A stretch of 64,000 bases of DNA from Tessaracoccus flavus (lineage in GTDB: Bacteria > Actinomycetota > Actinomycetes > Propionibacteriales > Propionibacteriaceae). The DNA lies in the NCBI RefSeq assembly GCF_001997295.1, contig NZ_CP019605.1, forward strand, positions 62,001 through 126,000. The letters are read 5' to 3'. Positions 3,053-62,499 of this stretch are shown here, piece after piece. Below the pieces are notes generated by a model, which saw only the letters and a program-made list of their open reading frames with translations, searched no databases and was not told the origin of the DNA. Position numbers and translations under genes: made by a program. How positions within the stretch are numbered: the first letter of the stretch is position 1; each line of letters begins with the position of its first letter.

Positions 3053-4576
3053 GTGAAGCGCGAATTTCTGCTCCCGGACCCGGGCGAAGGATTGCTCGAG
3101 GCCGAGATCGTCGCCTGGCGGGTCGCTGAGGGCGACGTGATCGAGGTCAACGACGTCCTGGTCGAGATCGAGACGGCCAAGTCGCTCGTCGAGCTCCCGT
3201 CCCCCTTCGCCGGCACCGTCACGCGGTTGATCGTGGCCGAGGGGACCACCGTCGAGGTGGGTGCCCCGATCGTCGAGATCGACGACGGCGCCGACGCGCC
3301 CGACGAGGCGGCGGGCCCCAACCTCGTCGGCTACGGAGCCTCGGACACGGGGGCCGCCCGCCGACGGCGCCGCGGCCAGCCCGATCGGGGCTCGGTCTCC
3401 GACGCCATGTCTGCCGCCTACGAGCAGCACGAGCCGGGACGTCGCGCTGACGAGGTGCATCCGGCGGGCACCGTTCACGCGCAGGCATCGGGCGATCCGT
3501 TGCCGACCCCGGGTCGCGCTCCCTCGGAATCGCAGTTGGTGCTCGCCTCCGACCCCGGCGATGCGCGCGCCAAGCCACCGGTGCGCAAGTACGCCAAGGA
3601 CCTGGGGGTCGACCTCAACTCCGTCGTCGGCACCGGGCCGGACGGCACGGTGACCCGTCGCGACGTTGAGGCGGCGGCGGCCTTCCGCATGCTCGACGAC
3701 GAGCCCAAGCAGGGGCGCATCCTCAACGACCAGGCGTCGTTCCAGGGGAGTCCATCCGGCGCGCCCGGGGGGCAGTCGCACGCCGGTACGTCGTTCAGCG
3801 GGTCGGCGTTCGGCGGAGGTTTCGGTCCGACGGAGGGCCTCGGCGGGTTCGACCCCAACCAGGGCCGGGCGGAGCGGCGCGTGCCGATCAAGGGCGTGCG
3901 CAAGGTGACGGCCGACAACATGGTGAAATCCGTCAACACCCACGTCCACGTCACCGAGTGGATCACGATCGACGTCACGGGAACGATGGAATTCGTCGAG
4001 ACGCTCAAGCAGCGTCGCGAATTCACCGGGCTGCGCGTCTCACCGCTGCTCGTCTACGCCAAGGCCATCTGCCTGGCGCTCACCCGCAACCCCGACCTCA
4101 ACACCTCGTGGGATGAGGAGCGTCAAGAGATCGTCTACTACGGCGACATCAACCTCGGCATCGCTGCGGCGACGCCACGCGGGCTCATGGTGCCCAACAT
4201 CAAGGGGGCGCAGCGCCTCAGCCTGCTGCAGCTCTGTCAGGCCATCAACCAGTTGGTGCAGGTGTCAAGGGAGGGCAAGCTCCAGCCCGGCGACTATTCG
4301 CAGGGGACGTTCACCATCACCAACGTCGGGGTCTTCGGCATCGACGCCGGCACACCGATCATCAACGGCGACGAGTCGGCGATCTTCTGCATGGGCTCGA
4401 TCGAGCGCCGTCCGTGGGTGGTGGGCGAGGGCGCTGACGAGAAGGTGGTGCCCCGCTGGGTGACGACGCTCGCGGTCGCGTTCGACCACCGGATCGTCGA
4501 CGGTGAGCAGGGGTCGCGGTTCCTGCACGATGTCGCCTCGATCCTAGCTGAGCCGGCCCTGGCGCTGCTCTACTGA
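3053..4576 (+). CDS. 2-oxo acid dehydrogenase E2, dihydrolipoyl acyltransferase
   Basis: This is the E2 core (507 aa): it takes the acyl group from E1 on a swinging lipoyl arm and passes it to CoA. One N-terminal lipoyl domain carries the modified lysine in EIETAKS (K43). The peripheral-subunit-binding domain is at about 174-210 (VRKYAKDLGVDL...GTGPDG), followed by a long Gly/Ser-rich linker (about 215-290). The C-terminal catalytic domain ends with AFDHRIVDGEQ, giving the H479/D483 pair. GTG start with AGGAGG overlapping the previous stop codon (3042-3047). It is the last gene of the operon; no dihydrolipoamide dehydrogenase is adjacent. Confidence 0.9.
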   Translation: MKREFLLPDPGEGLLEAEIVAWRVAEGDVIEVNDVLVEIETAKSLVELPSPFAGTVTRLIVAEGTTVEVGAPIVEIDDGADAPDEAAGPNLVGYGASDTGAARRRRRGQPDRGSVSDAMSAAYEQHEPGRRADEVHPAGTVHAQASGDPLPTPGRAPSESQLVLASDPGDARAKPPVRKYAKDLGVDLNSVVGTGPDGTVTRRDVEAAAAFRMLDDEPKQGRILNDQASFQGSPSGAPGGQSHAGTSFSGSAFGGGFGPTEGLGGFDPNQGRAERRVPIKGVRKVTADNMVKSVNTHVHVTEWITIDVTGTMEFVETLKQRREFTGLRVSPLLVYAKAICLALTRNPDLNTSWDEERQEIVYYGDINLGIAAATPRGLMVPNIKGAQRLSLLQLCQAINQLVQVSREGKLQPGDYSQGTFTITNVGVFGIDAGTPIINGDESAIFCMGSIERRPWVVGEGADEKVVPRWVTTLAVAFDHRIVDGEQGSRFLHDVASILAEPALALLY

Positions 4577-5597: not shown

Positions 5598-5880
5598 ACG
5601 CCAACAGGGAAGCTGCAGCGCCAACAGGGACACTGCAACGCCAACGAGGAGCGGCAAACGCCATCTGGCAAGCGAGGACGCCGGCGATCCACACCGATGC
5701 CCGCGATATATCGCGGGCATCCTTGAGTTTCGGTGGTACGACCGGATGTCGGTTGGCGTTGGGTGCTGCGGGTTGGCGTCGGGTGAGTTCTCGTTGGCGT
5801 TGGGTGCTGCGGGTTGGCGTCGGTGCGTACCCGTTGGCGTCGGTGCGTCCCGTTGGCGGTCGGGGCTGCCGGTTGGCGTC
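5598..5880. repeat. 20-bp-phased mirror array with central palindrome, copy A
   Basis: Left arm: GCC(A)AC-type boxes at 5600, 5620, 5640 and a degenerate one at 5660. Centre: a perfect 26-bp palindrome (5696-5721; half-site GATGCCCGCGATA). Right arm: CGTTGGC-type boxes with GTTGGCG starting at 5752, 5772, 5793, 5813, 5833, 5852 and 5872. The innermost boxes are symmetric about the centre at 5708.5. It fills the intergenic space between the divergent DUF4282 and alr genes. The 100 bp before it (5499-5597) shows nothing I can name. Confidence 0.85.
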
Positions 5881-19680: not shown

Positions 19681-19880
19681 GCCAACGGGCAGCGCGCAAC
19701 GCCAACGGGCCGAACTGAACGCCAACCTTCACCCGGTATCGCCCGCGAGACTCATCGACGCCCCTGATATCTCGGGGGCGTCGATGAGTTCCGGGGGCGA
19801 ATGGGCGTGACCGTTGGCGTATTGGTGACACCGTTGGCGTTGCGGGGGAGCCATTGGCGTCCCCGTAGAACCGTTGGCGT
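19681..19880. repeat. 20-bp-phased mirror array with central palindrome, copy B
   Basis: Left boxes GCCAACGG (last one GCCAACCT) start at 19681, 19701 and 19721. The palindrome spans 19751-19788 (half CTCATCGACGCCCC), centre 19769.5, with one mismatch pair and one wobble. Right boxes CCGTTGGC start at 19811, 19831, 19851 (CCATTGGC) and 19871. Period is exactly 20 bp. Located between the convergent PfpI and GH13 genes. The rest of the gap (19567-19680, 19881-19922) shows nothing recognisable. Confidence 0.9.
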
Positions 19881-39640: not shown

Positions 39641-39920
39641 GCCAACGGCTCCACCGCAACGCCAACGGCTCCCCCGGAACGCCAACGGTTTCACCGCAAC
39701 GCCAACGGTTTCACCGCAACGCCAACGGTTTCACCTACTCGCCCCCGGAACCCATCGACGCCCCCGAAATATCGGGGGCGTCGATGTTTATCGTCGGCGA
39801 GTTCCGATCTACGTTGGCGTTGCGGTCTCTTCGTTGGCATTGCGGTCTCTTCGTTGGCGTTCCGGTCTCTTCGTTGGCGTTCCGGTCTCTTCGTTGGCTT
39901 CCGGTCTTCTGCGTTGGCGT
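39641..39920. repeat. 20-bp-phased mirror array with central palindrome, copy C
   Basis: The most regular copy. Left boxes GCCAACGG begin at 39641, 39661, 39681, 39701 and 39721; the palindrome spans 39753-39786 (half CATCGACGCCCCCGA, 15-bp perfect arms, AATA centre; axis 39769.5); right boxes GTTGGC begin at 39813, 39833, 39853, 39873, 39893 and 39913. All periods are exactly 20 bp. The 12 bases between boxes are partly alike within an arm (TTTCACCGCAAC; GTTCCGGTCTCT). Confidence 0.92.
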
Positions 39921-55720: not shown

Positions 55721-55900
55721 GCCAACGGTCACCGGGAAACGCCAACGGTCAGCTGGAAACGCCAACAGACAGAGGGAAACGCCAACAGACAGGGCGCAAC
55801 GCCGACGAGACCAAGCGACGCCCGCGAGATCTCGCGGGCGTCTATGAGTCTCGCAGGCGTGACCTGATATCGGTTGGCCTTTCCCGCTGCCCGTTGGCGT
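55721..55900. repeat. 20-bp-phased mirror array with central palindrome, copy D
   Basis: Left boxes GCCAACGG/GCCAACAG begin at 55721, 55741, 55761 and 55781 (with a degenerate GCCGACG at 55801). The palindrome at 55817-55842 is a perfect 26 bp (half GACGCCCGCGAGA; axis 55829.5). Right boxes GTTGGC begin at 55873 and 55893. Convergent intergenic position between the last glycan gene and the quinone oxidoreductase gene; 55901-56104 shows no gene. Confidence 0.88.
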
Positions 55901-61725: not shown

Positions 61726-62499
61726 ATGGAACGTCTCGACGAAGGCGCCCGTCAACAAGCGATCGCTGATTCGGTCGAGCGGATCGGCCGCGCGCGGGTG
61801 GCCGACCTCGCCCGCGAGTTCGCCGTCTCCACGGTCACCATCCGCAAGGATCTCAACGCTCTCGAACGACGCGGCGTGCTGAGGAGGGTGCACGGCGCGG
61901 CCACACGGCTGCGGGCGTCCGACGGCAGCGCCTTCCCGAGCAGGGTGAGCCTCTGCCCGCAGGAGAAGCGCGACATCGCGCGGCGCGCTGCCCAACGGGT
62001 GCCGGACGGGGCCGTCATCGCCCTGGACTCCTCCAGCACCGTGTATTTCCTCGCCAAGGAACTGCTGCAGCGGCGCGGCCTGACCGTCGTGACCTACTCG
62101 CTCCCGACGGCCTCCCTGCTGCTCGACGGCTCGACGGCCACGGTCCACCTCCTCGGTGGGGTGCTGTCACGATCGACGAGAGCGGTGATGCCGCCGGCGG
62201 ATCTGGGGGCCCCCAGCGTCGAGATCGAGATGTTTTTCGGCGGTGCACACTCCGCCTCCCCTGAGCTCGGGTTGGGGGAACCGGATGAGGCCGAGGCAGC
62301 CACCAAGCGACACCTGGCTCTGCTCGCTCCCCAGCGCTACGCCCTGCTGACGTCGGACAAGGCCGACGAGACGGCCGCGCACACGTACCTCGGCCCCGAC
62401 GAGGTGACGGGCATCTTCACCGACCCCGGGCTGCCGGCCGACGTGGTGTCCCGCTGGCGTGCTGCAGGCGTCCGGGTTGACGCCGGACGCACCCGTTGA
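61726..62499 (+). CDS. DeoR family transcriptional regulator
   Basis: 257 aa with an N-terminal winged helix (RQQAIADSVERIGRARVADLAREFAVSTVTIRKDLNALERRGVLRRVHGAA) and a C-terminal sugar-phosphate sensor (DeoRC: VIALDSSSTVYFLAKEL...LLTSDKADETAAHTYL). The start at 61726 has CGGAG upstream; the frame extends to 61660 without support. It is followed 99 bp later by the FGGY kinase and probably represses that sugar operon, responding to its phosphorylated product. Confidence 0.9.
   Translation: MERLDEGARQQAIADSVERIGRARVADLAREFAVSTVTIRKDLNALERRGVLRRVHGAATRLRASDGSAFPSRVSLCPQEKRDIARRAAQRVPDGAVIALDSSSTVYFLAKELLQRRGLTVVTYSLPTASLLLDGSTATVHLLGGVLSRSTRAVMPPADLGAPSVEIEMFFGGAHSASPELGLGEPDEAEAATKRHLALLAPQRYALLTSDKADETAAHTYLGPDEVTGIFTDPGLPADVVSRWRAAGVRVDAGRTR

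Follow-up and report, generated by a model that had tools for sequence, protein, structure and literature searches.

Anatomy and copy number of the elements

The window, i.e. the whole stretch of 64,000 nucleotides analyzed here (positions 62,001 to 126,000 of contig NZ_CP019605.1 from Tessaracoccus flavus), has a G+C content of 68.6% and belongs to a genome of one contig of 3,222,890 bp. Between two convergent genes of this window lies the element under study, a mirror-symmetric array of short boxes at 39641..39918 that is assigned to neither strand (axis 39769.5; position weight matrix score 152). On the left of the axis, boxes start at 39641, 39661, 39681, 39701 and 39721; on the right, boxes end at 39818, 39838, 39858, 39878, 39898 and 39918. 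The core in between (39741..39798, likewise without strand) spans 58 bp and holds four boxes, as judged from the half-site consensus and a gapless alignment of 69 elements: two inverted boxes meet at the axis, and one further box follows 19 bp outward on each side. One of the neighboring genes has a weak glycosyltransferase match. The other encodes an IS110-family transposase (NCBIfam NF033542; 40118-41164, minus strand) and ends 200 bp past the last right box. Insertion of IS110-type elements into repetitive extragenic palindromic sequences (REPs) is known.

A sequence-only reading of the window had described four elements of this plan, and their places as well as their axes (5708.5, 19769.5, 39769.5 and 55829.5) are borne out by direct reading. 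The common organization is a four-box palindromic core, continued on both sides by head-to-tail half-sites in a 20-bp phase (two helical turns) that run outward with mirror polarity. Core boxes, of the GCCNNC type, begin at distances of 9.5 and 28.5 bp to the left and right of the axis, whereas outer GCCAAC boxes stand at 48.5 + 20n bp; counted outward from the axis, box ends thus fall at 10, 29, 49, 69, 89 ... bp. The left half of the core has the consensus GCCGACGAGACTCAGCGACGCCCGCGAnA, the outer repeat unit the consensus GCCAACgGnnagnncgnAAC; the boxes are constant and the linkers of the units variable. The rule of 48.5 bp between the axis and a box on either side is true in all four elements, with a variant GCCATC (5660) as the left box of element 1. 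These boxes are not the innermost ones, as had been supposed: variant boxes continue inward with a step of 20 bp and then one of 19 bp. The palindrome, first described as 26-38 bp long, is thus the 58-bp core of four boxes. The exact 20-bp phasing is upheld by 11 GCCAAC and 11 GTTGGC pairs in the window that lie exactly 20 bp apart, but element 1 also contains steps of 19 and 21 bp.

The family is not one of four members; according to a genome-wide search, which the sequence-only reading had proposed, the 3.22-Mb genome holds at least 83 elements, including a chimeric one (axis 2578870.5). The pattern GCCAAC-N{74,104}-GTTGGC matches 91 times in the forward and 10 times in the reversed (control) order, and its fixed 98-bp form 65 times, compared with none for the control. 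A weight matrix seeded with the exact cases yielded 70 elements in the stretches fetched first; a covariance model built from 69 of them (all but the chimera) led to further places and to the total of 83, a lower bound, as this model search scored 150 of 6,378 candidates. The 69 elements align without gaps over 98 bp. They were found with an ungapped matrix, and the covariance model, which allows gaps, served as a cross-check: all but one of its 150 listed rows comprise 98 bases. Around 82 axes, out to a distance of 260 bp, the sense of exact boxes is as expected in 621 cases and wrong in 10; 496 boxes keep the phase exactly, and 86 others miss it by one. Each arm carries between 0 and 11 outer boxes (mean about 4.2). 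With one mismatch allowed, the 82 elements contain 697 outer boxes, i.e. together with the four core boxes of each element roughly 1,000 half-sites.

The window elements are 178-278 bp long; the other three are also without strand. Element 1 (5600..5877; score 122) has left boxes starting at 5600, 5620, 5640 and 5660, a core at 5680-5737, and right boxes ending at 5757, 5777, 5798, 5818, 5838, 5857 and 5877. It lies between divergent genes as predicted, where the left gene call is weak and 690 bp away. Element 2 (19681..19878; score 149) separates convergent PfpI-type and TreS-like genes: left boxes start at 19681, 19701 and 19721, the core occupies 19741-19798, and right boxes end at 19818, 19838, 19858 (variant ATTGGC) and 19878. 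Element 4 (55721..55898; score 154), between convergent genes for a glycosyltransferase-like protein and a PIG3-type quinone oxidoreductase, consists of left boxes starting at 55721, 55741, 55761 and 55781, a core at 55801-55858, and right boxes ending at 55878 and 55898.

Placement among genes and along the chromosome

Relative to gene positions predicted by our own codon-usage gene caller, none of 70 elements lies inside a gene. Gaps of at least 150 bp with an element are convergent in 38 cases, co-directional in 37 and divergent in 5, compared with 5, 20 and 21, respectively, for gaps of this size without an element in the same stretches. Both arms are retained in 38 co-directional gaps, with 4.29 boxes toward the upstream gene versus 3.66 toward the downstream gene (p 0.16). 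Ordinary hairpins persist beside the elements: a stem of at least 10 is present at 16 of 93 gene ends with an element versus 6 of 58 without. That elements replace intrinsic terminators was rejected, as the hairpin scan showed no replacement; a strict scan for T-runs was underpowered. Among 163 flanking proteins no family dominates, the largest similarity group comprising four, and this diversity speaks against a gene cassette or a regulon.

With dnaA at 2,946,103 as reference for oriC, the elements are distributed over eight bins of oriC distance as 16, 13, 9, 14, 12, 10, 6 and 3 (Kolmogorov-Smirnov p 0.005). The oriC half holds 52 of 83 elements (p 0.028) and the farthest quarter 9 of 83; the longest stretch free of elements measures 256 kb, which is within expectation (p 0.094). 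The mapping relative to oriC that the first description had called for hence reveals a mild depletion far from the origin, but the bias is weak: with close pairs thinned out, the half-test places 42 of 71 elements in the half around oriC (p 0.15).

Two single loci deserve mention. One element lies upstream of gyrB (locus L092, about position 3908), and an element of the relative G009 is found on the same side of gyrB (locus L222, about 2009). Elsewhere, two elements bracket three predicted genes (locus L079, 1983-4982), i.e. an unannotated one, a lactate/malate dehydrogenase and an AbiEi-like protein; in G012 (locus L103, about 2999), there is a single element between the two outer neighbor genes of this pair. 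The difference looks as if recombination between elements had removed the three genes, or as if these had been inserted here.

Relatives, site turnover and mobility

The covariance model finds matches in 16 of 39 genomes of the genus (E <= 0.01) and, at E <= 1e-4, in 26 of 198 genomes of the family, which belong to 8 of 29 genera. Of 391 genomes sampled from the order, the model hits 22, from 7 of 40 genera, and each of these is a member of the Propionibacteriaceae; how many of the 391 lie outside this family was not stated by the search. In the searches of family and order, filters were stricter and each genome contributed few scored candidates. Best hits in relatives are often near-perfect palindromes, and the model, which rewards pairing, is biased toward these.

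In 15 genomes we read 19 loci directly. The better ones keep the same ruler, on which boxes stand at distances of about 10, 29 and 49 bp; it is shifted to 15, 34 and 54 bp in G009, G014 and G007, and only partly visible in weak hits (G002, G010, G036 and one of G003). The boxes themselves occur in dialects: GCCAACG, GCCAGCG (G030, G037), a GCCCG type (G001, G033) and ACCAGCG (G003) within the genus, and boxes such as GCCCCCGAAA or GCTCGCG in other genera.

Strict conservation of sites was rejected. A comparison of orthologous intergenic regions, also suggested at the outset, shows a gap or gene side shared with this genome for 7 of 42 elements of relatives (read by eye, with no chance expectation), but most positions differ. 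Of 29 genomes readable downstream of hspR, only four (G000, the present genome, and G009, G012 and G033) show an element there, and these four differ in dialect. Sites therefore turn over between species. The hspR site was picked because earlier hits pointed there; 30 loci were returned for the 38 genomes with the gene, and the other 25 of the 29 readable genomes were judged on the best displayed palindrome, so that elements with a poor palindrome could be missed.

Beyond these groups, a script scanned 84 loci where the pattern had matched in genomes of other phyla or in viral contigs. Mirror arrays were recognized in three, all from one Propionibacterium metagenome-assembled genome, and in none of the 19 hits in viral contigs; one locus (L144) gave the reversed-order control. 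Among the matches in G025 (contigs C98, C131, C153 and others) is a second, distinct palindromic repeat family of the GCCAGCCCTGCAGGGCTGGC type. The match at G006:C1:2158076 resembles a CRISPR repeat array more than an element.

Two tracts shared with relatives end at elements. The first, 1,956 bp with 99% identity to the other species G037 (L080 1-1956; L106 3192-5147), carries glycosidase and glycosyltransferase-like genes and ends in the middle of an element; it is a recent transfer with its border at the element. The second, with 93% identity to G008 (L197 1499-3098; L247 1950-3552), starts at an element edge, and the left arm of this element is one 20-bp unit longer in G008. Recombination at elements is likely, while mobilization of the element itself is not shown. 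A search for Y1 (RAYT-type) transposases, the one family covered, was negative in all 39 genus genomes at E <= 0.001; its control was positive in 5 of 14 genomes. Searches of plasmids with two elements and of phages with one gave no match. By the sequence-only reading, a structural role would be unlikely if the genome held just these four copies and a mobile copy was linked to a transposase; found instead were at least 83 copies, no Y1 transposase in the 39 genus genomes and no dominant neighbor gene family.

The elements could be REP-like, possibly selfish extragenic repeats that are tolerated at gene ends, whose boxes are read by a mobilizing enzyme and whose arms grow by 20-bp slippage. REPs are dispersed, extragenic and palindromic, and lie between convergent and co-directional genes (PMC3733652); copy number and placement of our elements, extragenic, at 3' ends and scarce between divergent genes as also in bacterial interspersed mosaic elements (BIMEs), are typical of REPs as described there. 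The variable presence between species, the arm that differs by one unit in a transferred pair and the two tract borders fit as well. However, REPs measure 20-40 bp and bear a GTAG or CGTC tag, those with GTAG going with RAYT transposases (PMC3733652), whereas the present elements are far longer phased mirror arrays in a genus for which no RAYT-type gene was detected; GACG/CGTC strings sit, by eye, within their symmetric arms and not as an unpaired tag. The flanking genes without a dominant family, a geometry that is held while sequences diverge, and the negative plasmid, phage and viral-contig results are further points against this explanation, which we consider unlikely. Another relative is Acidipropionibacterium thoenii. 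REP counts are given for it in the RepRanger paper (PMC12306157). Enterobacterial RU/ERIC repeats are intergenic, 103-168 bp long and present at many places (PMC2759123). The elements share intergenic position and many sites with these and with miniature inverted-repeat transposable elements, but transposon ends are not recognized in them. Phased box arrays are not known from either of the two groups.

Duplex half-sites, hairpins and a proposed binding protein

If pairing were the feature that is kept, the two arms of an element should match. Their box counts show no significant correlation (rho 0.18, p 0.11); in 34 of 82 elements they differ by three boxes or more. In addition, for the four linkers that lie outside the core, complementarity inside one element does not exceed that found across different elements (z -0.7, -0.3, 1.7 and 0.0). 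Hence, these results point to protein half-sites on duplex DNA rather than to an RNA hairpin. Over the whole 98-bp helix, 74.3% of the cells are pairable versus 73.6 +/- 0.5% in shuffled alignments, a value reached by 58 of 500 shuffles. A hairpin or cruciform as the selected feature is disfavored, if not dismissed, because tests of complementarity, pair count, mutual information and arm matching were mostly negative. The cruciform, which the first description had offered as an alternative, accordingly receives little backing from pairing, although pairing within the core and a very stable RNA fold leave some room for it.

We tentatively propose that the elements may well be dispersed binding platforms of a chromosome-organizing, sequence-specific DNA-binding protein that nucleates and spreads. 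Nucleation on the four-box core would probably involve a dimer of dimers; from there, the protein would extend in both directions, keeping to one face of the DNA and occupying between 0 and 11 additional half-sites in each arm. Phasing, box polarity, unmatched arms and the weak pairing signal agree with the earlier idea of a protein that binds the palindrome and spreads outward. Going one step further, the protein might organize or mark the chromosome, in the manner of nucleoid occlusion or of domains, rather than regulate single genes; this suggestion is based on the number of platforms (at least 83), their location at the 3' ends of genes, their rarity between divergent genes and their lower density far from oriC. 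The box dialects are as expected if the specificity of the protein and its sites change together in each lineage.

Several observations weigh against such platforms. No cognate binding protein was found, the oriC bias is weak, and sites turn over, as the hspR locus and the few shared gaps show; the chromosome-organizing role put forward at the outset is, on these three counts, not shown. Moreover, some pairing signals exceed expectation. Only 28 of 500 shuffles attain the covariation score of the whole helix; for the core alone, 82.0% of the cells are pairable versus 80.7% in shuffled alignments (2 of 500 as high), and the covariation score exceeds all 500 shuffles. Core columns 30-40 are more complementary within than between elements (z 5.56), an effect that drops to 0.89 in the commoner subtype (38 elements) and comes mainly from pair 35-64, which splits two subtypes. 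In the second-box columns, complementarity falls below the chance level, both in all elements and in this subtype (z -2.7 and -2.9). Slips at the same index of both arms number 11 of 255 shared positions versus 4.9 if independent, and none of the 11 is of equal size. Finally, the folding energies of the four window elements as RNA range from -61 to -82 kcal/mol, with z-scores between -4.6 and -11.3 relative to shuffles.

These folding energies, together with the 3'-end placement, the core pairing with one strongly covarying pair, and the near-perfect palindromes among top hits of relatives (from a model that favors them), would suit a bidirectional RNA structure at gene ends, i.e. a terminator, RNase barrier or mRNA stabilizer whose boxes and hairpin are read in both transcripts. 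A stable hairpin at gene 3' ends, as in an intrinsic terminator, is indeed present; by eye, no T-run (U-tract) lies 3' of the core, where the box arrays come next instead. Against the RNA structure stand whole-helix pairing barely above column make-up, the unremarkable linkers, the second-box columns, the unmatched arms, the ordinary hairpins that still accompany the elements, and the absence of Rfam matches in the window at the gathering threshold. We judge it rather improbable.

Polar roadblocks are known from TTF-I on Sal boxes and from Tus on ter. By analogy, a polar, DNA-bound array could act as terminator or insulator and halt RNA polymerase from both sides. Mirror polarity would let the polymerase from each gene meet the boxes in the same sense, and the preference for convergent gaps, the duplex half-site signature and the slight surplus of boxes facing the upstream gene are in line with this. 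Yet the surplus is not significant, gene ends near elements hold their own hairpins about as often as others, and five elements lie between predicted divergent genes; a roadblock thus appears quite unlikely. The wrapped length of DNA gyrase is about that of the core plus the first arms, and helical phasing, convergent gaps and the elements beside gyrB might be taken for a BIME-like loading or wrapping site that relieves positive supercoils between convergent genes, but strict boxes with lineage dialects and arms of up to 11 boxes would be unexpected for gyrase, which makes this explanation very improbable.

For the platforms of a spreading protein, close parallels are found in nucleoid occlusion. 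In titles and the first lines of abstracts of open-licence papers, no element of the present type was found. Noc of Bacillus subtilis has about 70 sites and SlmA of Escherichia coli 24-52, all palindromic and under-represented near the terminus (PMC4726725). Binding of SlmA involves a dimer of dimers and a distortion of the flanking DNA, by which further molecules might be admitted (PMC4726725). The elements of T. flavus resemble these sites as tens of dispersed palindromes, and perhaps also in a depletion toward the terminus, which is mild here. Noc sites, however, are 14-bp palindromes, for which the account in PMC4726725, as far as it covers them, describes no natural arrays; here, a 58-bp core is combined with phased arrays. 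As for a cognate protein of the ParB or TetR family, one ParB and no Noc-like paralogue beside parB were detected in a 20-kb stretch at dnaA among the 10 of 22 predicted proteins scanned, the only part of the genome searched for it. Two parS-like 16-mers lie between parA and gidB, and by eye the element consensus contains no 16-bp parS motif. Helical phasing is also a property of the ParMRC centromere: parC of pSK41, located directly upstream of parM and parR, contains direct repeats in a 10-bp helical phase, where ParR, assembling as a dimer of dimers, builds up an extended complex (PMC4911067). Unlike parC, the elements are at least 83 dispersed mirror arrays without a dominant neighbor gene family, and neither ParR nor ParM occurs among the roughly 40 proteins scanned near elements, a part of all flanking proteins. 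Membership in the Noc/SlmA, plasmid centromere or REP families is not shown.

Dispersed repeats as such are widespread in bacteria, but that roughly 1,000 half-sites follow a single ruler is difficult to account for unless a protein reads it, and the box dialects of related species are natural variants with which the binding protein can be traced. It is possible, though doubtful, that the elements belong to a new actinobacterial chromosome-marking system, in which a lineage-specific protein would nucleate on at least 83 four-box palindromes, polymerize outward in both directions, serve nucleoid occlusion or domain formation, and change together with the box dialect in each lineage of the Propionibacteriaceae. 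Since the canonical FtsZ anchors and Z-ring regulators known from E. coli are missing in Actinobacteria (PMC7118173), a nucleoid-marking system would fill a known gap.
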